Assembly (NCBI RefSeq): GCF_019320115.1 | Contig: NC_089593.1 | Span: forward strand, 11,747,908 to 11,811,907 | From: Miscanthus floridulus | Taxonomy: Eukaryota; Streptophyta; Magnoliopsida; Poales; Poaceae | Direction of reading: 5' to 3' | Length of the DNA stretch: 64,000 bases | Shown here: positions 1,966 through 46,776 of the stretch, in pieces | Layout: each line of letters opens with the position of its first letter | How positions within the stretch are numbered: position 1 is the first letter of the stretch | The notes under the pieces: model-generated | Databases searched by the model: none | What the model was told of the DNA's origin: nothing | The model's input: the letters and a program-made list of their open reading frames with translations, nothing else | Program-made: the position numbers and the translations under genes

Positions 1966-1978
1966 TGGTACCAGAGCC
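1966..1978 (+). other. RLG-1A primer-binding site
   Basis: TGGTACCAGAGCC lies two bases after the LTR end. It matches the initiator tRNA-Met primer site TGGTATCAGAGC with one change. RLG-1B carries the unchanged form. Confidence 0.85.
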
Positions 1979-7060: not shown

Positions 7061-7071
7061 GGGGGTAGATT
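7055..7071 (+). other. RLG-1A polypurine tract
   Basis: The stretch ttttaggggggtagatt lies directly before the 3' LTR. It is the expected plus-strand primer. RLG-1B has the equivalent on the minus strand at 22452-22468. Confidence 0.8.
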
Positions 7072-9634: not shown

Positions 9635-9775
9635 ATCACGAACAGGTAGACTTCGTACCCGTCGGTGATCCGAAGTACGATGAGGTGATCGAGGAGTACG
9701 AGGAGGAGCTTTTCACACAGGAGGGAGCCCAGGAGCCTGTTGGTACTGACTTTGCTGACTCAGCACCTACCCAAG
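9635..9775 (+). other. Exon-like acidic segment in RLG-1A 3' LTR
   Basis: Same 141-nt unit as at 490-630, but without stops. The frame reads DHEQVDFVPVGDPKYDEV, then an acidic run, then EGAQEPVGTDFADSAP. Acceptor-like catgtAG precedes it and a GC-type donor follows. Confidence 0.45.
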
Positions 9776-16424: not shown

Positions 16425-18419
16425 CCGTCGGGCGGCGAGCTTTCGTTCTCTTCTCCTCTTGGTGGAGGCGAGGCCCCAAAGATGGTGGCGATCACCTTGT
16501 CGTGGTCCTGGAAGGCATTATTATTGCCCCCAGGTGGTCAGCGACCTCCGGCTCCGTCGTTGGTGTCATCGTCCAACCTTTTGGTCCTAGAACTCCTTAG
16601 CCAAGCTGAGGTAGTCCTTCATCTTATGTCTGGCATTCTTGTGGAGAGGGCACGGGCCCACAAGGATCTTCTTGTATTGGTCGCCATAGTTGCGCTTGGC
16701 GTGAGGTTCATTAATGGCAGCGACGATGTGGTCTGGCCGGCGGCGGCGATTTTGACCAGACTTGGGTCCTTTCGGCCAATCACAGCAGCTGTCATGATGG
16801 TAACTATGGTTGTCGTAGTGGTAATCATTGTGGCGTTGGTCGTTAGGGCGGTCATCATAGCGGCGTGTTGGGCGATGAGTGCCCGCATCATCTTTGAAGT
16901 GCACTTTGGCTTCCTCGGCGTGAGCGTACTGGTTGGCGGTCGTGATCATCTCGCCAATCCCTATGGGTGGCTTGTGGTTGAACTTAGAGCAAAGCTCACG
17001 ATGATGGAGTCCTCTGATGAAGGTGGTGATGGCCTCCGCTCCTGTGATGTTGGGAATAGAATTCCTCGTCTCAAAAAAGCATCTGATGTAGCTACGAAGG
17101 AGCTCGGATGGCTTCTAGTTGATGCGGTTGAGATCATGCTTGGTGCCCGGCCAAGTACACGTGGCCATATAATTATCGGTGAAGACTTTTTTCAGCTCTT
17201 CCTAGGATCCAATGGAGTCTGGGGCAAGGCTTGTGAACTAGTTCATGGCGGTTGGCATGAGCATGATGGGAAGATAGTTCACCATGACACTGGTGTCTCC
17301 TCCAACGATGCGGATAGTAGTGGCGTAAGCCTATAGCCATTGTGTTCGGTTCATCCTTCCTTTATAGGGCTCGACCCCGGTGATTTTAAAACCACAGGGC
17401 CACTAAAGTCTTCAGAGTGCCCTCGTGAATGATAGGGGCCCTTCAGGGTTGGTGGCGCTGTCGTTTGTAGCATTGCCAGCGTTGAGCATCTCGAGAGCTG
17501 AGTCTGGGTTACCATACTCTTGCTCATACTCCTGGTGGTGGCATACTTCTTCTTCATGGCGACCAAAGCAGCATTCATCAATACGTCATTGTGCATCTCA
17601 GAGATTGTTGAGATGCACTCGGACGTCCTGGTCAACCTCCTGGTTGTATTGGTAGTGATGTTCAATGCAGTTGTCCCTACCTCCGCCCTAGAGGGGTTGA
17701 CTATCATCATGATGCTGGTCGGAGAAGTGACTTGGGCGGCGATCAGATCTTTGCGCGGCTAATCGGTGAATCGAGGTTGTGGAGCATGAAGGTCTCTGAT
17801 CCTGGCGGATCTCATTGACTTGACAGTGCACAGCTTTAAGCATGGTGGTGACCTTCGTGACCTCTGGTGTCTACGGGAGCTGAGTGAGCTCATTGGCGGC
17901 CACTGCTAGATTAGCGCTTGGAGTCTTGTAGATGTCATGACCATCAACACGGACAAACTCATCGTCGAGGTTGCGCTGAAGTGGCCTTCCTTGCGAGTCA
18001 AGCTGCTGCTCGGCCCTCACAAGGGTAGCCTCATTTGCTCAGTGCTATGCACGGTTGACATTCTGGTTCTCGCGAGCAGCGTGTTCCTCCTCAGTTTCGC
18101 CATTCCAAGGGGGGCTATCGACGCTGACATTGATGATTGCGCCGTCGCAGAAAGGAGGGAGAGGAAGTAGCTCAGTGGTGGTTTTAGCGATAGTCTCCGT
18201 AGAGCCTTGGGACTTAGAGTCCAAATTCTCCTCCAGGATGGTTTGGAGGGATGCTTCGGGGCATTGGTCAATGTGCAGCATGTTGAAGGCCGGCGGAAGC
18301 TGGTCGACGATCTGGTCGGCAGGAGGATGGACATCTCCAACCTGGTTAGCAAATCTGCCCCTTAGGGCATCTTGGTAAGCGGCGGTGACATTAGCGAACC
18401 CAAAGGGTAGGGCTATAAC
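16425..18419 (-). pseudogene. gag: TAT-1 gag, main part, broken
   Basis: The C-terminal zinc-finger-like segment CPLHKNARHKMKD, typical of Tat gag, is near 16630. Upstream is a basic Asp/Arg/His-rich region (16650-16940). The N-terminal side ends at the RLG-1B insertion with VIALPFGFANVTAAYQDALR. The reading continues on the far side of RLG-1B at 46777 after the ATAAC duplication. Stops and frame changes are frequent. The gag core lies in 17000-17900. Confidence 0.75.
18415..18419. repeat. Target duplication of RLG-1B, left copy
   Basis: ataac, identical to 46772-46776. A perfect 5-bp duplication shows RLG-1B arrived in TAT-1 as a unit. Confidence 0.92.
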
Positions 18420-21400
18420 TGTGGCAGAACCACCCAAAATAGCATACTTACGGAGGCGCTTGTCTTCCACTAGACACTAAGCACCCCGAAAGCAACTACA
18501 ACGAGCGGTATCCGTCGGGCACACCCCGAGGGAGAACCCGAAAGATCCACATTTTTCCCACGGATCCAATAATGAAAACGAGTTACAACACAAGTCCCTC
18601 TCATACATTAGAGTTTCTTAAAAGTACATTATTACAATACCAAATATAGAGTGCGGAATGATAAATAGCGGAATATTAAAAGATAACATCTAGCGATAAG
18701 ATAACGAGGATTTCGTCTGAACCCACTAGAAGAATCCTCCACACAAGGTACTCCTCAAGCATCACCTGCAATAGGGGTAAATAAACCCTGAGTACACAAT
18801 GTACTCGCAAGACTTATCCGATAGTGGGAATACTTTCCCGACTCCAAGGAATATGCTAGGCTTTATGGTTGCTGGTTCTCTTTTAGCCAAAAGTAGTACT
18901 AATAGTGAGTCCTTATTGATATATTATTATCATCAGCCGTATTAAGTTTTTATATAGTCAATCTATATAAGCACCTGCACTACTTTCAAGCAAGAGTTGA
19001 GCAATCGATACTGTTCCTTCTCCTTTTCCACTTCCAGTTCTTACTATGGTGCTAAACCGTAGACAAGCCGTACCAGGTAACCCGGCGATTCGCGAATCAA
19101 TGTGCCCAGCTGGGTGCCCCGAAGACACATGCCCTGCTTGTACCCCAGGCACAAGCAGGACTAACCTACCACTCTCCTGTCTTGGGTGTCCAGGTCCCCG
19201 TCCAAACTTGGAATCCAAGCCCCCGCCTCTGAATCCCGGACTCAGTGCGGCGCAAGGACCTCCACCACCTCCTCTTCCCATCAATCAGTCCGGAAAGAGC
19301 CGGATCCACGATAAGAGAGCAGCAAGTCTTCCCTACGCCCATACCCAAGTATGTGCTCGGGACAATAGTCTGTGACTTGCCTAGAGTCATATGCAACGAC
19401 TGGTCCTTAATCGACACAAACAGGGAAAAAGTGTAACCGGGCTATGCCCTATTGGCCGTAGGACACAACCCCTCACACCCACCAGTATCAAATCCACATC
19501 CCTGTCCGGTCACCATTTTTCCTTCCCATTATTTCATCATGATATTATAGTGTAATCACCTATTTGTGAGTAACATCAGGTTACTCATGCTACCGACATC
19601 CTGAGCATAGCAGCTACTCGACCTGCACTAGTAGGACTCAGGGTGGATATATCTATGCATGTAATTTCCATAAAATGCCTGTAACGTAAATGCATATCAT
19701 ATAAATATATTTAGTGATCATTTAAAAATAGGAGTTATGCACCGAGGCTTGCCTTGGGTAGGTGCCAAGTTAGCAAAGTCAGTACCAACAGGCTCCTGGG
19801 CTCCCTCCTGTGTGAAAAGCTCCTCCTCGTACTCCTCGGTCACCTCATCGTACTCCAGATCACCGATGGGTATGAAGTCTACCTGTTCGTGATCTACATG
19901 AAATGACGATGCAATGATTACACTATGGCAACAGCAATTCTCAATGCAAAAGTACCTCTATTACATTACTAAGCGAGGTCATCCTACTAAAGTCTAAGCT
20001 ATATACTAGTACTACTAACATGTATGACCGCGTCCTACATTCTTACGATGACTACGGATATTCATACTCCTAATGCCAGTTTACGATAAAGCAAGGATAA
20101 TAACTACGTCATTAAATGACTCGTTCTATGGTTACCATTTTTACAGCAAGTATATAAATGCCAAAGGAACCTACGGTAATGATTTCAAAGCTAAAGTTAT
20201 CGTCGGTTAACCACAACAAATCTTGCAATTAAAGATTGATATACTGCTAAGCTTTCTACTTCAAGCTTATGAGCCTACCATCCTAACCGCTAATGGTGAA
20301 CTAACTGTACTAACAGGTAGGCGACATTTTTGTGAACCTAACAAACTTAGTTTCGCTATTTTTGGACAACCATGCAATTTACTATAATTTATCGAAGTTG
20401 TATTCATAACAGGAAATAATTAAGCATTTCAAATTCTAGGAATTAATGAAAATCGAATCTTCTTTCGCCGGCCCACCACGCACAGCCCAGTCCAATGCGT
20501 TATCCCGCCCGCGCGCGACAGCAGTCCAGCGCGTGGCCCACGTGGAGGCGTGGCCCAGATGGCCAATGGCCCACGAAGGGGAAAGCCTGCGCATGTCGGT
20601 AAAAATGCATGAACACCCCCGACGAACTCAGCATTTGCTACGAGCTCTATGGTACTGTTTCGCTAGTCTACCGTTTTACATCTGCACCCTCCCACTTCTT
20701 CTTCCTCACCGTGAGGAGGTCCCTGGCCCCCAGGGCGTGCACCGGCGCGACGGCATGGCACCGGGCGACCACGCCAACCTCACCTGAACCCCTACAGCCT
20801 ACCTAAGGGGTCGATAGGTACCTGGATAGCACGTAGAAGCTACTAGAGGCGATACGACGAGCAGAGATGTAGGCACAAACTCCCTCCCCGGCGGTGGCTC
20901 CTGACCTGCAAGAGCGAGCGCGTTCCCGTGAGCAACAGCAAAGGCGAGGCCAGCGCACAAGCTAGCGAGCACCAGGGAGTACTCACCGACACCCTTGCAT
21001 TGACGGTTAGGTTGGAGGTAGTCTGAGCAAGGCTGGCCACGTGAGCTCACGGCGGTGCGGTGATGACCGATGGGGGCACTACCGCGGCGGTGGGGCTGGC
21101 CTACTACGATGCTACGACTAGGGTGCGCGGGGTGCTCAGGAGGATATGGCGAGACTGTGGGTGCACTGAATCGATACGAGATGCACTGCGGGCTGGTTCG
21201 CCATTGGAGGACGTCGGTTCGGTCTTATGGAGCCGGTGCCGCGGAATTAAGAAATTCCGATCATGTGCAAGGACACCCACAGCAAGGTGGGGACAGGGCG
21301 CAGCCAGACGCCTAACAGAGCCGTGCCTAAGGCGAACTGAGACCTATAGCTATGGTTAAGGCGAATTGGGGAAAATTGCTTCGGTGGCAAGGAGACAGTG

Positions 21401-22451
21401 GAGACAGGGGAAATCCTGGCGCGGCATGGCTCGGACCTGCGGTGGTCGCCAAAGCAATTACTGACCTGCACGGCCATGGGGAAACAGTAGGGCATGGCTC
21501 CAGGCGCCAGCCAGTAAGGTGTGGTAGCAAGCCAACGAATCAACGATACGGCGACGCAGCGGGCAGCATCCGACAAGATCCACAGAGCGAGTGCAACGCG
21601 AGGTGACGGCGGGTAGACCATCGTCCAACGCACAAATAGCCAAGGCGATGTCAATGGTGCAGAACCGCTGTGGCGACAGGCGACATGCAGCGTGGGACCA
21701 GCGCGCTCCCGGCCAAAGCAGAGCAGGGCACGATGTGCGCGTCGCGTCTCGGTGGCAAGGAAAACGTGGTGGCAGGCGAGTAGAGCGCGTAGGCGGGTAG
21801 CAGCGAGCAGGAGGCCACGACGCGCGGGTCATGCACGTGCATGGTGCAGCGAGCGCAGCTGGGCGTGGCAGCGGCTCTGGCCCATGCGGTAGAGCGCGCT
21901 GGAAACCAAACGGGGTGGTGACCGCACCCAGAGCTCAGCCAGGTGACGTGCACGACTTTTAAAGTAGCTAGAAAATGAGTACGCCGCGCTCCAAACGCCA
22001 TTCCAATTGCTCGATGCGAAAGGGAGTACACCGAGCCATCACTCTCAGTCATGACATTGCGCTACTTCTTAAGCCAATTGTTCTACAACTAATGCCAAAG
22101 GTGGCTTCGTCGACCACCTCAAAAACTTACGCGGAGGACGTTGATTTGAAAGGTTTCGCATTGAAACCCCAAACCCGACCCCCGGGACATACGCGCTAGC
22201 CATCCATGTCATCGACCACAACTTTTTATCATCATTCCCAAAACGTTTTATAACCTTTAGCATTAACAATAATTCGATTAAGGTAATAAACATGTTATGT
22301 GACACGAAACATAACCTTATGCTTTCCCGTTTCGTAAAAGTGTTTCAAAGCCAAACATGGATTATAAAGCCTATCATACACAAATGCACCTAAATTAGAT
22401 GCTTATGAAATGTTTCAGCAAAACATTACAATGTAACACCAGGGTGTTACA
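18420..22451 (-). repeat. RLG-1B 3' LTR (4032 bp)
   Basis: On the plus strand it runs from tgtggcagaaccacccaaaa to gtgttaca. It matches 42738-46771 closely. Its GC-rich block (20450-21960) contains short open frames on both strands without domains. Confidence 0.95.
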
Positions 22452-22468
22452 AATCTACCCCCCTAAAA
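22452..22468 (-). other. RLG-1B polypurine tract
   Basis: On the minus strand a purine run with seven G bases lies directly before the 3' LTR (aaatctacccccctaaaat on the plus strand). Confidence 0.8.
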
Positions 22469-26428: not shown

Positions 26429-27239
26429 TGTAACACCTCGGGTGTTAGCCTTGCATAACTTGACTTGCATAACATGAGCATGATCATCACACATTCATAA
26501 ACAAGCATTTACAATTGAAACATTTGATTGAAACATCTGCAACATTTGCTTGTTATCCCATGTTTCATTATCATGTGCAATCTTTCTCGTTATTTCATGT
26601 CTCCATGAGTATATGCAAATGATCATGAATGAAAACATGTACTTGGTAGATGTGAGTCACAAAAACATGTAACCACACTTGGGTTAGCAATTAGAACATT
26701 GTTCATGAAAGTCACTTTCCTTAATCAAGCCTTTAAGGCATGTTTCATGTGTTTGCCCTAACTAGCTCTATGAGTGACTACTACATAAAATGATTGAGTG
26801 ACCTTGCAAATTGCTTAAACATGCTTAGGATATCATTATGAACAACTTTGGTATTTAGGGCTAGGGCTAAATTGGTCATTTAGTCATGGTTTGAGTAAGT
26901 ATCATCATTTCAAAGTGACATGTTTGACTAAAGTTGAACTAGGTGCTAGGGACCTTGCATGGAGGAGCTCACTAAAGCAATGTTGTAGTGTTTGACATAA
27001 GGAACAACTTTGATTTTTGGGTCTTTGACTGATTCAGCTCCTAACATGTGTGAATTTGGATTTCAAAAATCAGAGAAATCAACCATTTCAACACTTAGCA
27101 AATTTTGTTAAGTCATGAACCCTGACAGCCTGAGAGGCCAACCTTGAGCATGATTTTTCTCTATTTCTGTTGTGAATTAGAACAAGTGCCTTGAACAAGT
27201 TTTGTAGCTGGTACATAGGTCTACAATTTCGGTTTAGGA

Positions 27240-28000
27240 AGTTTTGACTAGAAGTCCACAGATTCAGAGTTTTCATCGTTGCAAAACCCGTCGTCAGGCT
27301 CGGCATGTCGCGTCTGAACGAACTGAATCAAGCCATCAGTGGCCGACCGATTCAGTCCGTGGTTGCCGCGTGGTGCGGAGCATGGCCACGCGTCGCCAGT
27401 GCTCTGCCCAGCGTGGCCAAGGCAGGCCGAAGCGTGCCTTCATCACGCCAGCGCCCGCCCGCACTCAGCTGCGCACCCCATTTGCTTAGCCTCGGTTTCC
27501 TTCGTCGTCTCGCAGCGCCAGCAGCAGCCGCCGAGCTCTCACAGCTCCGTCGTCGCCATAACCGTGCACAAGCTCGTGCCTAGCCACTCCATCACCACCG
27601 CAGCACTCCATCGCCACCACAGCAGCGCACTGCCTCCTCCCGTGCTCGTTGACAGCCTTCGGTAAGCGCCAGCGTCATGCGCAAGCTCACCGGAGCTTCC
27701 TCGCCACGCCCGTCACCGTGGCTGGGGCGTGTCCCTCCACCATAGACCACGTAGCCATGCACATTAGGTTCGCCTGAGCCTAGGGATACTCGTCCGTGCC
27801 CTTTTTCGCTTCGCTGTGGCCTCCACCGGCGTACCGCCGTGGTCTAGCCCCGCCGCTCAACCATTGCCGCCGCCATCGTCTCTAGAGTCGACAATAGGTC
27901 TGGCCATCTGGCTCATTATACGCGCCGCCGTGCTCTGCTGTGTCTCGCTGACCAGTGGGTCCCGCATGTCAGCGACTCCATGTTTCAAATCTAGTTCAGT
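27240..28000 (+). other. GC-rich block in RLG-2 5' LTR
   Basis: Open frames here, such as the one at 27339-27665, have no domain and are rich in Ala, His, Pro and Ser. The copy in the 3' LTR (38070-38830) differs mostly at CG sites. The block may hold the promoter and leader. The donor-like gtaagc at 27662 lies inside the stop of one frame, so splicing there would extend it. Confidence 0.5.
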
Positions 28001-29109
28001 TTGAATGCAGATTCACATGTGTTTTGTTATTTTTGTATCTTCAATTTGGTAGCTCCTAAATTTGTGAAATAAATTTTGTAGTGTTCATTAGGAAGTGTAG
28101 TATTTAGGGAAAATATGTTCTTGACTTGTACAGTAGAAATTTTTGGAGAATTAAATAGGGATTTGAAATGTGCTTTTGAATGCATTCAAATTTGTTTATT
28201 TTATATCTAGAGTTCCTGTGCTCCAAAAATTATGAAATTTTTGTGGTAAGCTAGTCTTAGCATATGTGAGCTCTGGTAAAAATTTTAGGACCAGTGCATG
28301 GGTAGATTTATAGTTATAGATTTTTCTTTTATGGATAGTCAATCCTTGCATGAATTTTCATAAATTAATTATGAGTCCAAAATTCATGAAATTTGTTGGA
28401 GGCAATCCTAGTACCATATGGATGTTAAGAAAAATAGGAAATCTGTTGCTTGACACTTTTCAATAGGATTTTCCATTTATGCTATTTCAAGCCTTGCTTC
28501 CTTGTCATTTTTGCATAGGATGTTCTACTTGGTAAAATGACATGAAATTTTTATAGTAGTCCTTTGATAGCATTAGTAAGACACTATAAATTTTTGAGAA
28601 TTTATGAAGTATATTTGATATATGTTTATTATTTAACCTAGATATCTAAATAAAATAATAAAGGCAATTTAATAAATAGTTTGGGCTTCATTATTATATT
28701 ATCTTAAATGTATTTGGTATGCTTAAACTGTTGGTAGATTCTATGTTGTCAAATTTTGAATGATTACATGAAGTGGAAGTATTATTACTTTATACTGCAT
28801 ATTAAATAGTTTCCGGACTGATTCTAGAGTGTGATGAGTTGCATGTGGAAACTGCTGTGTACTGTAAAAATGGTTAATAACAAAGTTGTAGAGAATTTGA
28901 TAAGCTTTCCAGAAAGTCTAGGATCACTATTTTTGGATTAGTAGAACTCCAGTTATGAGTAAAACAAGTAGCTACTGTTTGTGGCATGGTCGATGCATTG
29001 TAGAAGTAGTTAGTAATAATCGAGAAGAGATATGCACCTACTCAATAAACATGATGCACTTGTTAACATATATGCATTCGTAATACTTATGCCATACTCA
29101 TGCATCTAG

Positions 29110-29262
29110 GATCGGAGGAAGAGATCACGTTGCTGGAATTCGAAGAAGCAGAGGAAGGGAACCAGCAGGAGGATCCGCAAGCCACAGCTCCCGAAGGCGT
29201 GGAGCAGAACCCTGAAGAGCTTCTGGAGTGTCCTGACCACCATCCTACTTCCTTTCTATGAG
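29110..29262 (+). other. Exon-like acidic segment in RLG-2 5' LTR
   Basis: 153 nt between catctAG and atgag|GCAAGC. The frame starting at the acceptor G reads GSEEEITLLEFEEAEEGNQQ and goes on acidic to a stop just before the donor-like site. Length is a multiple of three and the phase equals that of the RLG-1 unit. The sequence differs from RLG-1 except for acidity and the downstream ggcaagcccc. The 3' LTR copy is at 39942-40094. Confidence 0.45.
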
Positions 29263-30761
29263 GCAAGCCCCAGAGCATTATAAGTCTCCCAGTAATTTAT
29301 AAATGTTTACTTATGTATTTATGATTGATGCATTAGGTTATAAGAGTTGAATGAAACCACTTGATGCATGTAAATTCCTTGTCTAGATATTAACCCTTTA
29401 ACCGGTATAGGTCCAGGATCGAATATATGCTTAGCCATGCTTAGACCGGTAGAAGTCGGGTGATGTCCTGTCACCTGCGAGATGTAGGTGGATACCGGAG
29501 CACGGTTGGCTGTATCTGCTATCGTGGAACAGAACCATGAGGTAAAAGTAAATCAAGACCGGACAGGAAGTCGATAGAGAAGCAACAAGACATGGAGGTC
29601 TTAGGTGTGGATTTATCCCCGTCCATGTCGATTAAGGACCATACCATTGTTGGTGCTTCTGACAAGATTGAACGCATGCCTCTCACTTAGATGGCCGGAT
29701 AACTCGTTCCGACCACGAAGCCGAGTAATTCAACTCAGGCCGGGAACCGTTCTGTGGTGCGCTCCTTCCGGGGAACGATCAGACTGAGCCCAAGGGTAGG
29801 CTTGGCCTGAGCATCCTGGCATCTGGTGTTCCAGATTATGCGGCGCAGTATGGACCCGCAAAATGTGTACCGGAGTTGTACCAAAGGTGACCTAAGGCTA
29901 TCGTGGCTGGTAGACCTAGGTTTGTGTTAGGAATAAATTCCCAGCTGGTTGAAATCGATTCGAATCACCGTCTCTCCCAGATAGTGAGAAACTTGGCTAG
30001 TCCCAACATCGTAGCAACTATGTTATGAAACATGATGGTTCGGATGAATATGGAATTACAATACCTGCTATGGTTACTATTGTATGCTGCTAAATGATAT
30101 ACCACATGTTTGGCACAGGATAGTTGCTAATCTAGAAATGGATAGTTATAATTAACCTGATAAAGAAATTGTAACTGTACCATGACTCAATTGCTTTTAC
30201 ACAAAAATGTTGTCGAGTTACGTCCACTTATACAGCCTTGCATAATCCTTGGAGTCATTTTATTTCTGGTTCATGACGGGTAAGTCTAGCTGAGTACCTT
30301 CTCGTACTCAGGGTTTATTTTCCCATTGTTGCAGATGGCACTGTGTATCATGGGTATTGCAAGAGTTGCTTCTATCCCGCTATGGATGAGGAGTAAGCCT
30401 TGGGCAGGCTTCTTTAGTAATTCCTATCTTTGCTTTTGTGGACCGTGATCTGGCTTGGCACTGTATCAAACTATGTTGGAAACTTTATCTTCGAACTTAT
30501 TTGCTTCCGCTTTATTTATCAAACTTGATTTGTAATAACTTTTATTCGTACTCTGATGATGAAAGGTATCTGTGAACTTTATGTAATATGTGGCATGTAT
30601 GTCGAATCCTATACGATCTTGGTTGTTGTAAATTGTTTATCGAGACCCGTCGTGGTACTCGACGGACTACCGGGTTTATATGGGTTCAAGTATGACAGTG
30701 CGACCGCTTGCGGATTGCCATTGTACTTGTATTCTTATAAATTGGTCGATTCTGCAACAGC

Positions 30762-30773
30762 TGGTATCGGAGC
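30762..30773 (+). other. RLG-2 primer-binding site
   Basis: TGGTATCGGAGC, two bases after the LTR end, one change from the initiator tRNA-Met complement TGGTATCAGAGC. Confidence 0.85.
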
Positions 30774-31525
30774 AAGATTCAACGTTAATTGTCACAAGTG
30801 TATTTAAAACAAAAGTTTTTGTTTTCCAAAAACCCTTCTCTAGCAACTATTAGTTATATAATAGGTATTTGAAATCTAAAGTGTGCCAATGATCACTTTC
30901 CTTATGCCCAAATTAAGGACTATTAGGTGGCTATTTAAGTATTAACATGGGGGTTTTTACTTCGTTGTCCATACGGCGTGCTATAGTATGGATGCCATTC
31001 ACTTGAGTGGTAATGTATGGATCAAATGCCTCTATGCCAAGGTAAGATGAGTGTATGACCGCAAGATGTGAGCGTGTGGTCGGGAAGAGTTAGCTTTGGT
31101 ACGGTTATGTATGCATGCTTGCATGTGTATATGGTATGTATTTAATTGTGGGTTTAAATTATTATCGGGTAGATTGATACAGAAGTATATGTATGGGTAT
31201 ACATATATGGAAGTATTTACAATTACATTCTGCATATTCATTATGGGTTTAGGGCTGAAATGAAATTTTATGCATGTACACTAACAACGAAATGTGTAGC
31301 TCGACTAGTTACGCTATTTATGAGAGAACGTATGTATGCCACCATGTCTACCGTTAGAAACAAATTTTTCCTAAGTTTGTGAGGACGTACGGAATGAGCA
31401 TGCATCATGTTAAATTACCATTCACATAACTACATTGTTCCTCCCCTTATAAAATTCTTACTCGGTTATGTAACTCTTATCCATTATGGCATTGTCTCAC
31501 CAAAGGGTACATGTTAATGGTGCAG
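30774..31525 (+). other. RLG-2 leader
   Basis: About 750 bp, AT-rich, no gene seen. It ends in ggtgcag directly before an ATG, which could be a splice acceptor. Confidence 0.6.
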
Positions 31526-32449
31526 ATGGCACGCACCAAGCAGACTGCTTGCAAGTCTACCAGAGGCAGAGCTCCTAGCCGTCAGCTTGCTCCACGTACC
31601 TGTCAACGTCACACGTTCCTTGGAGAGTTTGGGATGCCTACACTCTTATGGAGAGTGCTCAGCTATGTAGGCTATCCTGATGGAATGGAACCCCGCTACT
31701 TCTGGGTGAATGAGCGGTTGGGAGAAGGTCTCTTAGTTACTGTGGAGGCCATTGTTCGTCCCTAAGGTGACGATTCTGAGTGGACAGGCTGGTGTTATGA
31801 GTCAACTGGCAGGACTACTAAAGAAGCAGCTGGCAGGGCAGCCTTTGGGATCCTGAGGGATATCATGGATCATTTTCCTCAGGAGCTGGCAGCCGCTTTG
31901 GTTGGAGTTTTTCCAAGGGGCAATCCCTCCACTGACTCATGGCAGCAGGCAAGAGGAAGATCCTTGGAGATTGGTGCAGCAGAAGGGCAGAACAGCGATA
32001 ACCCTTCCATGAGCGCCATGTTCGCAATGATGAGAGTGTTAGATGGAGTAGAAGGTAGCCTCAGATGTGTGTCTGGTGCTCTTGGTCATGCCCGCGAGGA
32101 CCGACGTCAGCTTCAGAGGGAGCACGACGCTGAGATTGAGAGGCTCACTGAAGAGATGACTCGGTTAACTCACCAGCAAAATGCAGCCTAGTCTAGGGAA
32201 GATGTCTTGAGAGCTCGACAGTTTGAGCTGGGACAGCAGCTGGCCAATGTGGAAGAATACAACGATAATCTGCATGAAGAGGTTCATCTACTGAACAATC
32301 AGCTCCACCCTTATGTCCCACCTAGAGCTACAGAAATGGATCTAGAAGGGTACGAGGAAGAAGAAGAAGTGGAGCCTGAAGAAGAAGTAGAACCTGAGGA
32401 AGGAGATGATTCTGCGTCTGACCTTGATAGTGATCATGATGAGGATTAG
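31526..32449 (+). pseudogene. Extra RLG-2 gene with a histone H3-tail-like N-terminus
   Basis: A 307-codon frame from the ATG at 31526, with a TAA at 31763 and a TAG at 32189; the frame is otherwise continuous. Residues 2-21 are ARTKQTACKSTRGRAPSRQL. Against the H3 tail, 16 of the first 21 residues agree. The K4 and K9 positions, S10 and T11 are kept; R8 is Cys and K14 and K18 are Arg. Next comes a region of about 110 residues with LLWRVLSYVGYPDG, YFWVNERLGEG, EWTGWCYESTG and TTKEAAGRAAFGILRDIM. The last part resembles the C-terminal helix of double-stranded RNA-binding folds, but only weakly. Then a charged helical stretch (REDRRQLQREHDAEIERL) and a Glu/Asp-rich tail. It is not a histone: no histone fold is present. 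Two ATGs lie upstream in frame (31511, 31517). Function unknown. Confidence 0.8.
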
Positions 32450-32805: not shown

Positions 32806-33882
32806 ATGATGCGCACCCGTGCTGGAGCTGGTGGCAGCTAGGATGGCAATCAGGATGACTTGCCACCCCCACCGCCGTCGTCTGCTCAGGAGTTCTTTAC
32901 CCAGTTCCTGGGTAGCCAGAGGACAATGGAAGAAGCTTTGCGCCTTATCGCACAAAACACTGCTCGTGGCCACCCACATCAACCAGGGGCCGAGCCAAAT
33001 CAGCACAGTACATTCAAGGAGTTTCTGGATACGAAGCCTCCGATCTTCAAGGTGGCTGAGGAACCACTGCAGGCCGATGAGTGGCTGAATACCATTAAGC
33101 AAAAATTTCGTCTGTTGAGGGTCACGGAGCATCTAAAAGCAGAGTATGCTTCTCATCAATTGCAAGGACCAGTAGGGATCTGGTGGACACACTTCCTGTC
33201 GTCTCTGCCTGCTAACATGCGAGTGACCTGGGAATAGTTTAAGCTGGCTTTTAGGGGACACCATATTCCCCTGGGCCTAATGCGCATGAAAGCAGCCGAA
33301 TTTATGAGGCTCACTCAGGGAACAAAGTCACTCACAGAATATATGCATGTGTTCAACAACTTGTCAAGATATGCTCCCAGTTTCATGGATACCGAGGAGA
33401 AAAAGATAGAGAGTTTCAAGCAAGGTTTGGGTACCAAACTGATGAAGACTATGGCAAATTCTCGATGTGCCACGTACAATGAGTTTATTAGTGATGCCTT
33501 GACCCAAGAAAACCACAACAACATGCATGCAGTTGCTAAAGGCCGCAAGAGGGCATATGAGGCCGATGCATCCGGATCTTTCCAGTCAAAAGCACCTATC
33601 ACAGCTAGGCCACAATTCTGTCCACCTGCACCCAAGTTTAGGCCTCCACCACCAAAAGCTCAGAATAATAGGCCACAAAAACCATTCCGTAAGGCGTTCA
33701 CTATTGCCTTACCAAAAGGAAATGGCAATTAGGACAGCTCCACCGGATTCAGAAGTAATCAACCATGTTTCAACTGCAACCAACTGGGTCATTGGTCCAA
33801 GGAATGCCCCCACCCCAAGAGGAATGGCAACCCAAATCAGAATAATCAGAGGCAGGTGAATGCTAGGGCACGTTAGGGATAG
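32806..33882 (+). pseudogene. gag: RLG-2 gag, stops only
   Basis: Starts at ATG 32806. It has a proline-rich start, a gag core with LQADEWLNTIKQKFRLLRV, GIWWTHFLSSLPANMRVTWE and KSLTEYMHVFNNLSRYAPSF, a basic linker, and a CCHC knuckle CFNCNQLGHWSKECP near 33769-33813. In-frame TAG codons are at 32839, 33235, 33730, 33871 and 33877. No frame change. It joins pol in the same frame. Confidence 0.88.
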
Positions 33883-36800
33883 GTGCATTATACCGCTATG
33901 GAGGAAGTGCCCGCCGGAGAAGTGGTCACGGCTGGTATGTTTCTCGTCAACAAGCATCCTGCTGTTGTTTTATTTGATTCGGGAGCTTCTCATTCATTTA
34001 TGAGTCAAGCATTTGCATCTAGACATGATCAAGAAATAATTGAAGTAAGCAAGAGGGGTTTTAACATAAGTTCAGCAGGGGGAACTGTTGCTACCAAAAA
34101 GATAGTCAAAAATGTACTCATCTCGATACAAGGGAGGGAGTACACAACAGATTTGATAATATTGCCGGGGTTGTCGATAAGTGTAATCTTAGGCATGAAT
34201 TGGATGAAGTATCATGGTGCTCTTATTGACACTAGCACCCGCACTATTATGTTGAGAGAACCCACGGGAGGGAATGCTTTTCTAGTCCCACTCTCCCGCA
34301 ATTTCGAACCCCAACATTTAGCCTGTGCTATCCAAACCACCACAATATGTGATATCCCCATGGTTTGTGAGTTCCCGGATGTATTCCCAGAAGAATTACC
34401 AGGTCTACCACCGGATAGGGACATGGAATTTAAGATTGAATTAGTGCCAGGTACTGCACCCATATCCAGAAGGCCCTATAGAATGCCACCCAATGAGTTA
34501 GCAGAACTTAAGGTTCAATTGCAAGATCTATTGGACAAAGGTCTTATCCAACCTAGCTCATCTCCATGGGGATGTCCAGCCTTGTTTGTGAAAAAGAAGG
34601 ATAAGTCACTGAGAATGTGTGTAGATTACAGACCACTCAATGCGGTGACCATCAAGAACAAATATCCATTGCCCTGCATCGACATCTTGTTCGATTAGCT
34701 AGCGAAGGCAAAGGTATTCTCCAAAATTGACTTGAGATCAGGTTACCATCATATAAAGATCAGACCGAAGGATATACCTAAAACTGCTTTCTCTACTAGG
34801 TACGGCTTATACGAGTATTTGGTTATGTCTTTCGGACTAACAAATGCTCCAGCCTATTTCATGTACCTGATGAACTCGGTATTCATGCCCGAACTTGATA
34901 AGTTCATGGTCGTGTTTATCAATGACATATTGATTTATTCAGAAAATGAGTCAGATCATGAAGAGCATATGAGGATTGTCCTATCCAGACTGAGGGAGCA
35001 TAAGCTATATGCCAAGTTTAGCAAATGTGAATTTTGGATGAGCAAAGTACCTTTCTTAGGTCACATTTTATCAAGAGATGGAATCTCAGTAGACCCATCT
35101 AAAGTACAAGAGGTCATGGATTGGAAAGCCCCAACTTCGGTTCATGAAGTTTGGAGTTTTCTAGGGTTAGCAGGATACTATCGCCGATTTATTCTAGACT
35201 TCTCAAAGATAGCTAAGCCTATGACCAGACTACTTCAAAAAGATGAGAAGTACAAATGGACACAAGAATGTGAAATAGCTTTTCACACCCTCAGAACTTT
35301 GTTGACTACAGCACCTATGCTAGCACAACCAGACATTGAAAAGCCTTTTGATGTATTTTGTGATGCATCAGGAATAGGTTTGGGATGTGTGCTTATGCAA
35401 GAAGGGAGAGTAATTGCATATGCCTCATGGCAATTGAGAAAACATGAAGTCAACTACCCTACACATGATTTGGAACTTGCAGCCGTTGTCCATGCATTAA
35501 AGATATGGAGACATTACTTATTGGGCAATGTATGTCATATCTATACTGACCACAAAAGTCTCAAGTATATCTTTACCCAGCCAGAGCTGAACATGAGACA
35601 ACGAAGATGGTTAGAATTGATTAATGACTATAATTTAGAAGTGCATTACCATCCAGGTAAGGCAAATGTAGTAGCTGATGCACTTAGTCGGAAGTCCCAT
35701 TGCAACACTGTTGAAGCATTGTTGGAAGATGGATTCAACTTGTTACATCCTGTTGTACTACACAATATCACAATCAGTTGTTCACTTGAGAGCAAAATCA
35801 TAGAGCTATAGCAGATAGATGTAGGAATAAGTCACATCAAGAGAAAAATGCAAGAGCAAGAAACCAAACATTTTAGATTGGACGAAAGAGGTGTATTATG
35901 GTTTGAGGACCGGTTAGTGGTACCAAAAGACCAGGAGCTAAGGAATCAAATTTTAGCTAAAGCTCACTCGTCCAAATTGTCCATCCATCCGGGTAGTAGT
36001 AAAATGTATCAAGATCTAAGAACCCGTTTTTGGTGGACTAAGATGAAGAAAGAGATTGCAGCCTATGTTGCTAGGTGTGATAACTACAGTAGAGTGAAAG
36101 CCGTCCATATGAAAACCGCTGGATTACTTCAGCCATTGCCTATTCTAGGATGGAAATGGGAGGAAATCAGCATGGACTTTATCACAGGCCTTCCAATGAC
36201 GCCAAAAGGTCACGATTCAATCTGGGTTATTGTTGATCGTCTCACCAAGTCAGCACACTTTATACCCATGAACACACGGTATATAGTTGGAAAATACGCT
36301 GAGATATATGTTTCCCAGATCGTGAGACTGCATGGAGTACCCAGGACTATAATCTCATATCGAGGACCACAGTTCATAGCTCATTTCTGGGAGCACTTAC
36401 ACTAGGCTTTGGGAACCAAGCTAATCAGAAGTTCAGCTTATCATCCGCAAACTTCAGGACAGACAGAGCGAGTGAACCAAATCCTAGAAGATTTACTTAG
36501 AGCTTGTGTGATATCTTCAAAAGGTTCATGGGAGAAATGGTTACCTTTAGCTAAATTCTCCTATAACAACAGTTATCAAGTGAGTATCAAAATGGCTCCA
36601 TTTGAAGCCTTGTATGGCAGAAAGTGCAGAACTCCATTGAATTAGATTGAGCCCGGTGAAAGGAGATACTTTGGTATTGATTTTGTCAATGAAGCCGAAG
36701 AGCAAGTACGTATCATCCAACAACACATGAAGGCAGCTCAATCAAGACAGAAGAGTTATGCCGATAGAAGAATAAGACCACTAACTTTCGAAGTAGGTGA

Positions 36801-37290
36801 CTACGTATACTTGAGAGTATCACCCATGAAAGGTGTGAAAAGATTTGGGATGAAAAAGAAGCTTTCACCAAGATATGTAGGGCCATACAAAATTTTGAAA
36901 CAAAAAGGAAATGTTGCGTATAAGTTACAACTACCACCAGAGATGAGTGCAATCTTTGATGTGTTCCATGTTTCTTAGTTGAAGAAATGTCTTCGAGTAC
37001 CGGAAGAAGCTATTGCACCCACCAACGTGCAGCTTCAATTGGATTTGACCTATGAAGAAAAGCTAATTCGAGTATTAGAAGAGATGGAGAGAGTGACAAG
37101 GAGTAAGATTATTAAGTTCTATAAGGTGGTGTGGAACAATCATAGTGAACAAGATGCTACGTGGGAAAGAGAAGATATCTACGAGAAGTTTATCCCACCT
37201 TTTTCCAAGAATGGTAGGTCTTGCAAATCTCAGGACGAGATTTTTATAAGGGGGAGGGGCTGTAACACCTCGGGTGTTAGCCTTGCATAA
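33883..37290 (+). pseudogene. pol: RLG-2 pol: protease, RT, RNase H, integrase, chromodomain
   Basis: Protease: [17 protein letters not shown] near 33964-34014. RT at about 34370-35230; the active site reads FINDILIYS, so the first catalytic Asp is Asn. RNase [14 protein letters not shown] and [10 protein letters not shown]. Integrase at 35848-36645: HHCC finger with the last Cys replaced (RCDNYSR), SMDFITGLP (Asp kept), IISYRGPQF (second Asp replaced by Tyr) and QTERVNQ (Glu kept). The chromodomain-like end KIIKFYKVVWNNHSEQDATW is near 37105-37170. The frame runs into the 3' LTR and stops at 37290. TAG codons are at 34696, 35809, 36403, 36643 and 36976; there is no TAA, TGA or frame change. 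Confidence 0.92.
37246..37260 (+). other. RLG-2 polypurine tract
   Basis: The purine-rich stretch ataagggggaggggc lies directly before the 3' LTR start. Confidence 0.8.
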
Positions 37291-40200
37291 CTTGACTTGC
37301 ATAACATGAGCATGATCATCATGCATTCATAAACAAGCATTTACAATTGAAACATTTGATTGAAACATCTACAATATTTGCTTGTTATCCCATGTTTCAT
37401 TATCATGTGCAATCTTTCTCGTTATTTCATGTCTCCATGAGTATATGCAAATGATCATGAATGAAAACATGTACTTGGTAGATGTGAGTCACAAAAACAT
37501 GTAACCACACTTGGGTTAGCAATTAGAACATTGTTCACGAAAGTCACTTTCCTTAATCAAGCCTTTAAGGCATGTTTCATGTGTTTGCCCTAACTAGCTC
37601 TATGAGTGACTACTACATAAAATGATTGAGTGACCTTGCAAATTGCTTAAACATGCTTAGGATATCATTATGAACAACTTTGGTATTTAGGGCTAGGGCT
37701 AAATTGGTCATTTAGTCATGGTTTGAGTAAGTATCATCATTTCAAAGTGACATGTTTGACTAAAGTTGAACTAGGTGCTAGGGACCTTGCATGGAGGAGC
37801 TCACTAAAGCAATGTTGTAGTGTTTGACATAAGGAACAACTTTTATTTTTGGGTCTTTGACTGATTCAGCTCCTAACATGTGTGAATTTGGATTTCAAAA
37901 ATCAGAGAAATCAACCATTTCAACACTTAGCAAATTTTGCTAAGTCATGAACCCTGACAGCCTGAGAGGCCAACCTTGAGCATGATTTTTCTCTATTTCT
38001 ATTGTGAATTAGAACAAGTGCCTTGAACAAGTTTTGTAGCTGGTACATAGGTCTACAATTTCGGTTTAGGAAGTTTTGACTAGAAGTCCACGGATTCAGA
38101 GTTTTCATCGTTGCAAAACCCATCGTCACGCTCGGCATGTCGCGTCTGAACGAACTGAATCAAGCCATCAGTGGCCGACCGATTCAGGCCGTGGTCGCCA
38201 CGTGGTGCGGAGCATGGCCACGCGTCGCCAGTGCTCTACCCAGCATGGCCAAGGCAGGCCGAAGCGTGCCTTCATCACGCCAGCGCCCGCCCGCACTCAG
38301 CCGCGCACCCCATTTGCTTAGCCTCAATTTCCTTCGTCGTCTCGCAGCGCCAGCAGCAGCCGCCGAGCTCTCGCAGCTCTGTCATCGCCATAACCGCGCA
38401 CAAGCTCATGCCTAGCCACTCCATCACCACCGCAGCACTCCATCGCCACCACAGCAGCGCACTGCCTCCTCCCGTGCCCGCTGACAGCCTTCGGTAAGCG
38501 CCAGCGTCATGCGCAAGCTCACCGGAGCTTCCTCGCCGCGCCCATCACCATGGCTGGGGCGTGTCCCTCCACCATAGACCACGTAGCCATGCGCATTAGG
38601 TTCGCCTAAGCCTAGGGATACTCATCCGTGCCCTTTTTCGCTTCGCCGTGGCCTCCACCGGCGTACCGCCGTGGTCCAGCCCCGCCGCTCCGCCATTGCC
38701 GCCGCCGTCGTCTCTAGAGTCAGCAATAGGTCCGGCCATCTGGCTCATTATACGCGCCGCCGTGCTCTGCTGTGTCTCGCTGACCAGTGGGTCCCGCATG
38801 TCAGTGACTCCATGTTTCAAATCCAGTTCAGTTTGAATGCAGATTCACATGTGTTTTGTTATTTTTGTATCTTCAGTTTGGTAGCTCCTAAATTTGTGAA
38901 ATAAATTTTGTAGTGTTCATTAGGAAGTGTAGTATTTAGGAAAAATATGTTCTTGACTTGTACAGTAGAAATTTTTGGAGAATTAAATAGGGATTTGAAA
39001 TGTGCTTTTGAATGCATTCAAATTTGTTTATTTTATATCTAGAGTTCCTGTGCTCCAAAAATTATGAAAATTTTGTGGTAAGCTAGTCTTAGCATATGTG
39101 AGCTCTGGTAAAAATTTTAGGACCAGTGCATGGGTAGATTTATAGTTATAGATTTTTCTTTTATGGATAGTCAATCCTTGCATGAATTTTCATAAATTAA
39201 TTATGAGTCCAAAATTCATGAAATTTGTTGGAGGCAATCCTAGTACCATATGGATGTTAAGAAAAATAGGAAATCTGTTGCTTGACACTTTTCAATAGGA
39301 TTTTCCATTTATGCTATTTCAAGCCTTGCTTCCTTGTCATTTTTTCATAGGATGTTCTACTTGGTAAAATGACATGAAATTTTTATAGTAGTCCTTTGAT
39401 AGCAATAGTAAGACACTGTAAATTTTTGAGAATTTATGAAGTATATCTGATATATGTTTATTATTTAACCTAGATATCTAAATAAAATAATAAAGGCAAT
39501 TTAATAAATAGTTTGGGCTTCATTATTATATTATCTTAAATGTATTTGGTATGCTTAAACTGTTGGTAGATTCTATGTTGTCAAATTTTGAATGATTACA
39601 TGAAGTGGAAGTATTATTACTTTATACTGCATATTAAATAGTTTCCGGACTGATTCTAGAGTGTGATGAGTTGCATGTGGAAACTGCTGTGTACTGTAAA
39701 AATGGTTAATAACAAAGTTGTAGAGAATTTGATAAGCTTTCCAGAAAGTCTAGGATCACTGTTTTTGGATTAGTAGAACTCCAGTTATGAGTAAAACAAG
39801 TAGCTACTGTTTGTGGCATGGTCGATGCATTGTAGAAGTAGTTAGTAATAATCGAGAAGAGATATGCACCTACTCAATAAACATGATGCACTTGTTAACA
39901 TATATGCATTCGTAATACTTATGCCATACTCATGCATCTAGGATCGGAGGAAGAGATCACGTTGCTGGAATTCGAAGAAGCAGAGGAAGGGAACCAGCAG
40001 GAGGATCCGCAAGCCACAGCTCCCGAAGGTGTGGAGCAGAACCCTGAAGAGCTTCTGGAGTGTCCTGACCACCATCCTACTTCCTTTCTATGAGGCAAGC
40101 CCCGGAGCATTATAAGTCTCCCAGTAATTTACAAATGTTTACTTATGTATTTATGATTGATGCATTAGGTTATAAGAGTTGAATGAAACCACTTGATGCA

Positions 40201-41591
40201 TGTAAATTCCTTGTCTAGATATTAACCCTTTAACCGGTATAGGTCCAGGATCAAATATATGCTTAGCCATGCTTAGACCGGTAGAAGTCGGGTGATGTCC
40301 TGTCACCTGCGAGATGTAGGTGGATACCGGAGCACGGTTGGCTGTATCTGCTATCGTGGAACAGAACCATGAGGTAAAAGTAAATCAAGACTGGACAGGA
40401 AGTCGATAGAGAAGCAACAAGACATGGAGGTCTTAGGTGTGGATTTATCCCCGTCCATGTCGATTAAGGACCATACCATTGTTGGTGCTTCTGACAAGAT
40501 TGAACGCATGCCTCTCACTTAGCTGGCCAGATAACTCGTTCCGACCACGAAGCCGAGTAATTCAACTCAGGCCGGGAACCGTTCTGTGGTGCGCTCCTTC
40601 CGGGGAACGATCAGACTGAGCCCAAGGGTAGGCTTGGCCTGAGCATCCTGGCATCTGGTGTTCCAGATTGTGCGGCGCAGTATGGACCCGCAAAATGTGT
40701 ACCGGAGTTGTACCAAAGGTGACCTAAGGCTATCATGGCTGGTAGACCTAGGTTTGTGTTAGGAATAAATTCCCAGCTGGTTGAAATCGATTCGAATCAT
40801 CGTCTCTCCCGGATAGTGAGAAACTTGGCTAGTCCCAACATCGTAGCAACTATGTTATGAAACATGATGGTTTGGATGAATATGGAATTACAATACCTGC
40901 TATGGTTACTATTGTATGCTGCTAAATGATATACCACATGTTTGGCACAGGATAGTTGCTAATCTAGAAATGGATAGTTATAATTAACCTGATAAAGAAA
41001 TTGTAACTGTACCATGACTCAATTGCTTTTACGCAAAAATGTTGTCGAGTTACGTCCACTTATACAGCCTTGCATAATCCTTGGAGTCATTTTATTTCTG
41101 GTTCATGACGGGTAAGTCTAGCTAAGTACCTTCTCGTACTCAGGGTTTATTTTCCCATTGTTGCAGATGGCACTGTGTATCATGGGTATTGCAAGAGTTG
41201 CTTCTATCCCGCTGTGGATGAGGAGTAAGCCTTGGGCAGGCTTCTTTAGTAATTCCTATCTTTGCTTTTGTGGACCGTGATCTGGCTTGGCACTGTATCA
41301 AACTATGTTGGAAACTTTATCTTCGAACTTATTTGCTTCCGCTTTATTTATCAAACTTGATTTGTAATAACTTTTATTCGTACTCTGATGATGAAAGGTA
41401 TCTGTGAACTTTATGTAATATGTGGCATGTATGTCGAATCCTGTACGATCTTGGTTGTTGTAAATTGTTTATCGAGACCCGTCGTGGTACTCGACGGACT
41501 ACCGGGTTTATATGGGTTCAAGTATGACAGTGCGACCGCTTGCGGATTGCCATTGTACTTGTATTCTTATAAATTGGTCGGTTCTGCGACA
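37261..41591 (+). repeat. RLG-2 3' LTR (4331 bp)
   Basis: Same length as the 5' LTR. It ends ctgcgaca. Differences from the 5' copy cluster at CG sites of the GC-rich block (38070-38830), as expected for methylated cytosines. Confidence 0.96.
39942..40094 (+). other. Exon-like acidic segment in RLG-2 3' LTR
   Basis: Same 153-nt unit as at 29110-29262, nearly identical and open. Confidence 0.45.
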
Positions 41592-42722: not shown

Positions 42723-42735
42723 GGCTCTGATACCA
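42723..42735 (-). other. RLG-1B primer-binding site
   Basis: On the minus strand TGGTATCAGAGCC, exactly the initiator tRNA-Met primer site, two bases from the LTR end. Confidence 0.9.
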
Positions 42736-42737
42736 AC

Positions 42738-45700
42738 TGTGGCAGAATCACCCGAAATAGCATACTTACGGAGGCGCTCGTCTTCCACCAGACACTAAGC
42801 ACCCCCAAAAGCAACTACAACGAGCGGTATCCGTCGGGCACACCCCGAGGGAGAACCCGAAAGATCCACATTTTTCCCACAGATCCAATAATGAAAACGA
42901 GTTACAACACAAGTCCCTCTCATACATTAGAGTTTCTTAAAAGTACATTATTACAATACCAAATACAGAGTGCGGAATGATAAACAGCAGAATATTAAAA
43001 GATAACATCTAGCGATAAGATAACGAGGATTTCGTCTGAGCCCACCAGAAGAATCCTCCACACAAGGTACTCCTCAAGCATCACCTGCAACAGGGGTAAA
43101 TAAACCCTGAGTACACAATGTACTCGCAAGACTTATTCGATAGTGGGAATACTTTCCTGACTCCAAGGAATATGCTAGGCTTTATGGTTGCTGGTTCTCT
43201 TTTAGCCAAAAGCAGTACTAATAGTGAGTCCTTATTGATATATTATTATCATCAGCCATATTAAGTTTTTATCTAGTCAATCTATATAAGCACCTATACT
43301 ACTTTCAAGCAAGAGTTGAGCAATCGATACTGTTCCTTCTCCTTTTCCACTTCTAGTTCTTACTATGGTGCTAAACCGTAGACAAGCCGTACCGGGTAAC
43401 CCGGCGATTCACGAATTAATGTGCCTAGCTGGGTGCCCCGAAGACACACGCCCCGCTTGTACCCTAGGCACAAGCAGGACTAACCTACCACTCTCCTGTC
43501 CCGGGTGTCCAGGTCCCCGTCCAAACTTGGACTCCAAGCCCCCACCTCTAAATCCCGGACTCAGTGCGGTGCAAGGACCTCCACCACCTCCTCTTCCCAT
43601 CAGTCGATCCGGAAAGAGCCAGATCCACGACAAGAGAGCAGCAAGTCTTCCCTGCGCCCATACCCAAGTATGTGCTCGGGACAATAGTCTGTGACTTGCC
43701 TAGAGTTATATGCAACGACTGGTCCTTAATCGACACAGACAGGGAAAAAGTGTAACCGGGCTATGCCCTGTTGGCCGCAGGACACAACCCCTCACACCCA
43801 CCAGTATCAAATCCACATCCCTGTCCGGTCACCATTTTTCCTTCCCATTATTTCATCATGATATTATAGTGTAATCACCTATTTGCGAGTAACGTCAGGT
43901 TACTCACGCTACCGACATCCTGAGCATAGCAGCTACTCGACCTACACTAGTAGGACTCAGGGTGGATATATCTATGCATGTAGTTTCCATAAAATGCCTG
44001 TAACGTAAATGCATATCATATAAATATATTCAGTGATCATTTAAAAACAAGGGTTATGCACCGGGGCTTACCTTGGGCAGGTGCCGAGTCAGCAAAGTCA
44101 GTACCAATAGGCTCCTGGGCTCCCTCCTATGTGAAAAGCTCCTCCTCGTACTCCTCGATCACCTCATCGTACTCCAGATCACCGACGGGCATGAAGTCTA
44201 CCTGTTTGTGATCTACATGAAATGACGATGCAATGATTACACTATGGCAACAGCAATTCTCAATGCAAAAGTGCCTCTATTACATTACTAAGCGAGGTCT
44301 TCCTACTAAAGTCTAAGCTATATACCAGTACTACTAACATGTATGACCACGTCCTACATTCTTACGATGACTACAGATATTCATACTCCTAATGCCAGTT
44401 TATGATAAAGCAAGGATAATAACTATGTCATTAAACGACTCGTTCTATGGTTACCATTTTTACAGCAAGTATATAAATGCCTAAGGAACCTACGGTAATG
44501 ATTTCAAAGCTAAAGTTATCGTCGGTTTACCACAACAAATCTTGCAATTAAAGATCGATATACTGCTAAGCTTTCTACTTCAAGCTTATGAGCCTACCAT
44601 CCTAACCGCTAATGGTGAACTAACTGTACTAACAGGTAGGCGACATTTTTGCGAACCTAACAAACTTAGTTTCGCTATTTTTGGAAAACCATGCAATTTA
44701 CTACAATTTATCGAAGTTGTATACATAATAGGAAATAATTAAGCATTTCAAATTCCAGGAATTAATGAAAATCGAATCTTCTTTCGCCGGCCCACCACGC
44801 GCAGCCTAGTCCAGCACGTTATCCCGCCCGCGCACGACAACAGTCCAGCATGCGGCCCACGTGGAGGCATGGCCCAGATGGCCAATGGCCTGCGAAGGGG
44901 AAAGCCTGTGCACGTCGATAAAAATGCACGAACACCCCCGACGAACTCAGCATTTGCTACGAGCTCTACGGTACTGTTTCGCTAGTCTACCGTTTTACAT
45001 CTGCACCCTCCCACTTCTTCTTCTTCACTGCGAGGAGGTCCCTAGCCCCCAGGGTGCGCACCGGCGCGACGGCACAGCACCGGGCGACCACACCGACCTC
45101 ACCTAAACCCCTACAGCCTACCTAAGGGGTCGATAGGTACCTGGATAGCACGTAGAAGCTACTGGAGGCGATACGACGAGCAGAGATGCAGGCACAAACT
45201 CCCTCCCCGGCGGTGGCTCCTGACCTACAAGAGCGAGTGCATTCCTGTGAGCAACAGTGAAGGCGAGGCCAGCGCACGAGCTAGCGAGCACCAGGGAGTA
45301 CTCACCAACACCCTTGCGTTGACGGTTAGGTTGGAGGCGGTCTGAGCAAGGCTGGCCACGTGAGCTCACGGCGGTGCGGTGATGATCGACGGGGGCACTA
45401 CCGTGGCGGTGGGGCTGGCCTGCTGCGATGCTATGACTAGGGTGCGTAGGGTGCTCAGGAAGATATGGCAAGACTGTGGGTGCACTAAATCGATACGAGA
45501 TGCACTGCGGGGCTGGTTCGCTGTTGGAGGACGTCGGTTCGGTCTTATGGAGCCGGTGCCGCGGAATTAAGAAATTCCGATCATGTGCAAGGACACCCAC
45601 AGCAAGGTGGGACGGGGCGCAGCCAGACGCCTAATGGAGCCATGCCTAAGGCGAACTAAGACCTACGGCTATGGTTAAGGCGAATTGGGGAAAATTGCTT

Positions 45701-46771: not shown

Positions 46772-46776
46772 ATAAC
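46772..46776. repeat. Target duplication of RLG-1B, right copy
   Basis: ataac, identical to 18415-18419. Confidence 0.92.

Follow-up and report, generated by a model that had tools for sequence, protein, structure and literature searches.

A putatively captured H3.3 exon at the start of ORF0 in a long-LTR gypsy retrotransposon of Miscanthus floridulus, and its possible action as a histone-tail decoy

In a 64,000-nucleotide stretch of the Miscanthus floridulus genome (NC_089593.1, positions 11,747,908 to 11,811,907 of the forward strand; hereafter the window), we analyzed ORF0, a gene situated upstream of gag in a long terminal repeat (LTR) retrotransposon of the gypsy type (Table 1). We class the element as a Retrosat2/Tekay-type long-LTR gypsy, judging by LTRs of more than 3 kb, by the position of ORF0 between the 5' LTR and gag, and by an integrase C-terminal chromodomain whose Pfam match lies under the gathering score. 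The translation of ORF0 opens MARTKQTACKSTRGRAPSRQLAPRT and has an acidic C-terminus. A direct count shows 16 of the 21 residues after Met to be identical to the histone H3 tail, among them K4, K9, S10, and T11, just as an earlier note made from the letters of the window had reported. A chance origin of this likeness can be rejected, since among 2772 ATGs on both window strands a single one scores 16/21 with a runner-up of 6, and since 200,000 random 21-mers with the composition of the ORF0 protein reached a maximum of 8 H3 matches. Two in-frame stops leave the ORF0 of the window broken, as the note had also recognized, and other copies carry an uninterrupted ORF0.

Copies of ORF0 were collected at the DNA level from one genome, that of M. 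floridulus, by searches with initial candidate counts of 7347, 8522, and 10,617 (possibly overlapping, and with unrelated places included), and the best 150 places per search list were used, which favors intact N-termini. The 64 copies compared below are the best-scoring rows, with the same bias towards intact starts, and comprise the groups A1, A2, A3, D, and E and a short lineage F, where the A1-A3 sub-lineages were told apart at residues 17-18, not on a tree. Excluded from our counts of 56 and 64 copies were L009 and L010 (duplicates of L003 and L006), L014 (start outside the cut), and L034, whose match runs from residue 2 and for which no start ATG was found. In relatives, matches to the H3 tail rise to 19/21. 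Of the five positions at which the window copy departs from H3, two (C8 and R12) carry a residue that is in the minority among the 64 copies, with R8 found in 58/64 and G12 in 50/64. The likeness was said to end at about residue 22 with no histone fold behind it, and this holds: H3 identity stops at residue 21, and Pfam gave no histone match in the pieces of the window ORF0 or in 8 relatives. Averaged over the ORF0 copies, identity to H3 is 81% at residues 1-21 and 4% at residues 22-30.

To which gene this segment belongs is indicated by the host. An H3.3 query against the same genome returned both unsplit H3 genes and split ones, and in seven of the latter the first piece covers query positions 1 to 25 or 26 (Met counted). 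Nine split genes were examined (L077 and L079-L086, two of them split just once), with exon borders taken from DNA alone, and all nine place a GT after the K23 codon, 72 nt from the start of the ATG. Like this first coding exon, the H3-like unit of ORF0 runs 72 nt from ATG to residue 23 with equal ends, and 49-57 of the 72 nt are identical over 36 comparisons with host exons. Unlike host H3.3, ORF0 has no later H3 exon and no histone fold, and its K14, K18, and K23 are replaced. Since a 72-nt unit with the same ends is shared and identity drops after residue 21, we conclude that an exon was captured. At the level of sequence, the exon match thus establishes the ORF0 N-terminus as the captured coding part of the first coding exon of an H3.3-type host gene, an origin that had not been foreseen in the earlier note. 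Directly before the ATG, all 64 ORF0 copies carry CAG or TAG. The same bases precede the ATG in five of the nine host genes (CAG in three, TAG in two), and the other four need an exon start farther upstream. By eye, the leader intron discussed below has no likeness to the H3.3 gene beyond this CAG.

The replacements K14R, K18H/R, T22P, and K23R are common to most lineages, which suggests a single capture event; outlying copies, such as P0111, retain K14 and T22. In lineage D (L029-L037) and the C-type proteins P0026 and P0077, the linker after the tail often reads (R/H)KSKF, which resembles the RKS of H3 at K27-S28 with a one-residue shift and may be either chance or a remnant of later H3 sequence. 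The genome also holds H3 gene copies with in-frame stops (L070, L072, and L073) alongside the intact H3 genes.

Across the 64 copies, K4, A7, K9, S10, G13, P16, and L20 never vary, and T6 is kept in 63, so that the H3-like start, also present in relatives with open frames, is a feature of the family. In the same copies, K14 is replaced by R (64/64), K18 by H or R (61/64), and K23 by R (60/64). Synonymous change between copies is seen at T6, G13, P16, and L20, A7 being written with a single codon and S10 nearly so. In four pairs of copies, hand-picked for Fisher comparisons and not independent, 9 to 15 of about 18-20 synonymous sites have changed with the amino acids kept. We further compared nonsynonymous with synonymous divergence (dN/dS) in hand-picked sets (8/46 copies for A, 4/7 for D). 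Between the lineages A, D, and F, whose synonymous sites are strongly diverged, the tails of A1, A2, and A3 gave 0.17, 0.12, and 0.13 against D, and those of F gave 0.11 against A and 0.14 against D. The downstream region predicted to adopt a double-stranded RNA-binding domain (dsRBD) fold gave 0.14, 0.15, and 0.13 for A1, A2, and A3 against D, and the host exon against ORF0 tails gave 0.16-0.24. In lineage F, the dsRBD-fold domain is absent and the tail is retained. These between-lineage values demonstrate, as far as codon comparison can, purifying selection on the captured peptide, including in the dsRBD-less lineage F. They lead us to reject a neutral relic, one of the outcomes by which the earlier note had proposed that its reading could fail.

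Shallow comparisons are less clear and weigh against a uniformly strict tail. In these its dN/dS is higher, namely 0.31 for A1 x A1 (dsRBD region 0.14), 0.34 for A1 x A2 (0.19), 0.59 for A1 x A3 (0.15), 0.19 for A2 x A3 (0.18), 0.37 for A2 x A2 (0.34), 0.38 for D x D (0.42), and 0.49 for F x F; against three decayed E copies, it is 0.29 for A2 and 0.51 for D. The shallow and E-copy values are burdened by few sites and dead copies. Lysine codons are little exposed to C-to-T decay, and the invariance of K9 in dead copies would by itself be weak evidence. The stronger point is that K9 persists across lineages while R is accepted at positions 14 and 23.

Public sequences include 40 proteins with an H3-like start, selected by their H3 similarity, which present 37 distinct tails with K9 in 37/37 and K4 in 30/37. 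Neither among them nor among the other public matches did we find a relative whose N-terminus is clearly different. The H3-like start is degenerate in P0118 and apparently frame-shifted in P0137, and the remaining matches (P0002-P0138) without an H3 start, which set in farther downstream or at the edge of a contig, are uninformative. As separate observations, copy L046 joins an A2-type ORF0 start to an A1 leader and gag start (as against L036, L043, and L048), which suggests recombination between lineages, and a family-F ORF0 at G000:C17:69354605-69355039 sits in a 591-aa open frame, possibly fused to neighboring sequence.

Table 1. Features of the ORF0-bearing element, in window coordinates.
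Feature	Position	Strand	Remarks
5' LTR	26429..30759	+	4331 bp; 98.43% identity to 37261-41591; starts TGTAACACC
Primer-binding site	30762..30773	+	TGGTATCGGAGC; follows the 5' LTR
Candidate leader intron	31042..31525	+	donor AAG/GTAAGATG, acceptor GCAG/ATG
ORF0	31526..32449	+	upstream of gag; stops at 31763-31765 and 32189-32191 (codons 80 and 222)
H3.3-exon-1-derived segment (putative)	31526..31597	+	72 nt; Met plus H3-tail residues 1-23
Predicted dsRBD-fold domain	31631..31879	+	alpha-beta-beta-beta-alpha; models of P0020 and P0052, placed here via an alignment
Coiled-coil region	32006..32311	+	one long helix in the model of P0052, of lesser length in the window copy; limits approximate
Acidic C-terminal tail	32312..32446	+	window translation
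gag-pol region	32806..37290	+	gag (PF03732), protease, reverse transcriptase, RNase H, integrase zinc domain
Integrase C-terminal chromodomain	37066..37182	+	PF00385, E 0.003, under gathering score; aromatic cage incomplete
Polypurine tract	37248..37260	+	AAGGGGGAGGGGC; precedes the 3' LTR
3' LTR	37261..41591	+	partner of the 26429-30759 LTR

Beyond the tail, the note had described a middle region, a charged helix, and an acidic end, and the middle region corresponds to a predicted dsRBD-like fold (from the models of two relatives), followed by a predicted coiled coil and an acidic C-terminus with a net charge of -12 to -22 over the last 40 residues in five relatives and low model confidence (pLDDT) in P0052. 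In the models, the middle region shows the alpha-beta-beta-beta-alpha order over about 70 residues, and the best structure matches of this predicted fold include domains of DRB7.2, DCL4, and TRBP. DRB7.2, DCL4 dsRBD2, and TRBP/Loqs dsRBD3 are protein-binding dsRBDs, whereas dsRNA-binding ones are marked by a basic KKxAK-like motif where helix 2 begins. No sequence match of the ORF0 domain to these three was found, and by eye such a helix 2 start is absent in 9/9 relatives; its net charge is 0 to -12 in five relatives. With Pfam, no family was found for ORF0 residues 1-79 and 81-221, the remainder matched bZIP_2 only (E 0.28, below cutoff), and 8 relatives gave sub-threshold matches only, mostly coiled-coil. 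No dsRBD family appeared in an hmmscan of the 8 relatives at E up to 10, where the filters discard most weak matches, nor among the 7 weak matches of a PDB sequence search with the middle-domain profile.

A candidate leader intron, unproven, would end at the ORF0 start codon. Its donor pattern recurs at -487 to -491 in 9/27 copies (L001-L008 and L046, which have one common leader) and was not found in the other 18/27, which have different leaders. Within the window alone the splice-signal evidence is weak, as an equally good donor arose in 125/500 shuffles of the window leader and the ORF0 acceptor ranks 41/150 by a crude score; conservation across copies seems the better argument. The gag ATG is likewise preceded by gcag in the window, and by AG in 8/9 copies with this leader (AA in L004). 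Because AG stands before both ATGs and the donor is present in the nine copies, a one-donor splicing model fits, under which alternative splicing from one leader donor could yield either ORF0 or gag.

Our preferred account, to which we would give an even chance, is that the captured H3.3 exon, the predicted dsRBD fold, the coiled coil, and the acidic tail act together as a decoy H3 mimic against silencing. Removal of Met would expose an ART-K4-TA-R8-K9-S10 tail, on which host H3K9/K4 enzymes may then act and to which host readers may bind, such as SUVH/KYP, CMT-type readers, and JmjC or PHD proteins. With the acetylatable K14, K18, and K23 lost and K9 kept, it would resemble a permanently unacetylated, methylatable tail. 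The coiled coil might multimerize ORF0 into a decoy in trans, one that would dilute or block silencing of the element by H3K9 methylation and CHG methylation, and the dsRBD-fold domain may touch the silencing pathway on its DRB/Dicer side. The best reading of the tail appears to be the one proposed in the note, by which it would compete for host writers, readers, or demethylases. More tentative, and in our estimate well short of even, is a fuller version in which H3K9me writers and readers accept a methylation-only tail that acetylation-dependent factors cannot, the fused dsRBD fold works on the Dicer/DRB branch, a single protein thereby opposing RNA-directed DNA methylation (RdDM) in both its arms, and the tail-plus-coil form alone has been massively amplified in the same genome.

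Other explanations account for parts of the evidence. The segment might be kept as a basic N-terminal peptide that serves nuclear import, binding of RNA or DNA, acetylation of the N-terminus, or stability, its H3 letters being a mere starting point; the charge-preserving replacements at positions 14, 18, and 23 agree with this. We find it unlikely, however, as R never occurs at position 9 though it replaces K at 14 and 23, and as 63 or all 64 copies keep the uncharged T6, A7, S10, G13, P16, and L20, four of these residues through synonymous change. Quite unlikely, in our view, is a targeting role, whereby the modified tail would recruit readers and tether ORF0, together with gag or the integration complex via the coiled coil, to a chromatin state. 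A coiled coil and an acidic tail would suit such a bridging protein, K9, R8, and S10 are retained, and an additional chromatin contact would be useful to an element whose chromodomain has a single cage residue, but entry of ORF0 into the particle or contact with integrase is unsupported, and the best matches of the dsRBD-like fold point to silencing instead. That the exon works merely in cis, providing a 3' splice site and start codon with the peptide a passenger, would explain the CAG or TAG before the ATG in every copy, the CAG in three host genes, and the AG before gag. This we consider very improbable, given that synonymous sites change and amino acids stay, that neither K9 nor L20 is needed for anything in cis, and that the dN/dS pattern already contradicts it.

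Least credible of all is that the modified tail is read by the element's own integrase chromodomain, as the note had suggested from the presence of tail and chromodomain in one element. The domain is indeed there (phmmer: best match 2m2l, E 0.00013; Clr4, E 0.027; HP1, E 0.28), but of the three aromatic cage residues only W is present. The cage positions are E, W, and H here versus Y, W, and F in HP1, the first being placed by gapless extension by eye and the third holding H in place of the F or Y of HP1 and Clr4. According to PMC6317226, plant type II chromodomains are without the first cage residue, in most cases without the last as well, and have no known partner. Self-reading is accordingly disfavored because the cage is incomplete. 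From the earlier interpretation, the family feature and the selection on it survive, and binding by the element's own integrase is unlikely.

Viral proteins with short H3-like motifs, or histone mimics, are known, and the decoy reading likens ORF0 to them in that a short histone-tail motif sits on an unrelated protein. Unlike these, ORF0 has 23 residues matching one host exon, at its extreme N-terminus, and in a retrotransposon. Anti-silencing proteins of other plant parasites, geminivirus TrAP (PMC4606454) and VANDAL VANC (PMC10398659), are described in their abstracts as attacking these silencing steps. ORF0 would share with them the proposed aim of weakening H3K9me2 or silent marks, whereas neither abstract mentions an H3-tail sequence. 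ORF0 itself is known from rice Retrosat2, RIRE3, and RIRE8, with homologs in maize, sorghum, and Brachypodium (Gao et al., 2012; PMC3485330), which by that description resemble the present gene as a gypsy frame upstream of gag in elements with LTRs of ~3 kb or more. In the accessible text of that study, Oryza ORF0 has a Ka of 0.257 and a Ks of 1.647, figures that imply constraint; no obvious function was assigned, ORF0 was not found outside grasses, and capture of unrelated DNA was one suggested origin. Our account differs from theirs, in which metabolic enzyme activities were predicted, and their main text contains none of the words 'histone', 'double-stranded', and 'coiled'. The words 'histone', 'H3.3', and 'ORF0' are likewise absent from the accessible part of a 2026 review on gene capture by plant transposable elements, and none of the titles or abstract openings among the matches listed in our literature search, a scope outside which subscription papers and preprints fall, reports an H3-tail sequence in a retrotransposon. 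The present case would be histone mimicry in a plant retrotransposon, of an element class silenced by H3K9 methylation, with a clear one-exon H3.3 origin and evidence of selection. The element may thus imitate the very histone tail through which plants silence elements of this kind. This gives ORF0 a testable role, and simple peptide biochemistry could then address how retrotransposons that are abundant in grasses persist in the face of H3K9me/CMT silencing.

As for the element itself, its primer-binding site is presumably of the initiator-tRNA-Met type, and the gag-pol region contains several stops or frame breaks. The identity of its LTRs, with an assumed substitution rate, suggests insertion within the last million years. 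Flanked by a direct repeat (TGATT/CGATT, 4/5 bases equal), it is nested within a minus-strand element. A reverse transcriptase (RT) piece used as query found no relatives among viral contigs, and the ORF0 DNA had no match in plasmid records. The enclosing element belongs to a second gypsy family (18417-46772, minus strand), with direct repeats of ~4.0 kb (18417-22452 and 42735-46772, 94.3% identical) and a related copy at 1-11112. Another retroelement occupies 58196-63921 on the plus strand, with long open frames that include one of 747 aa with RT-like sequence.
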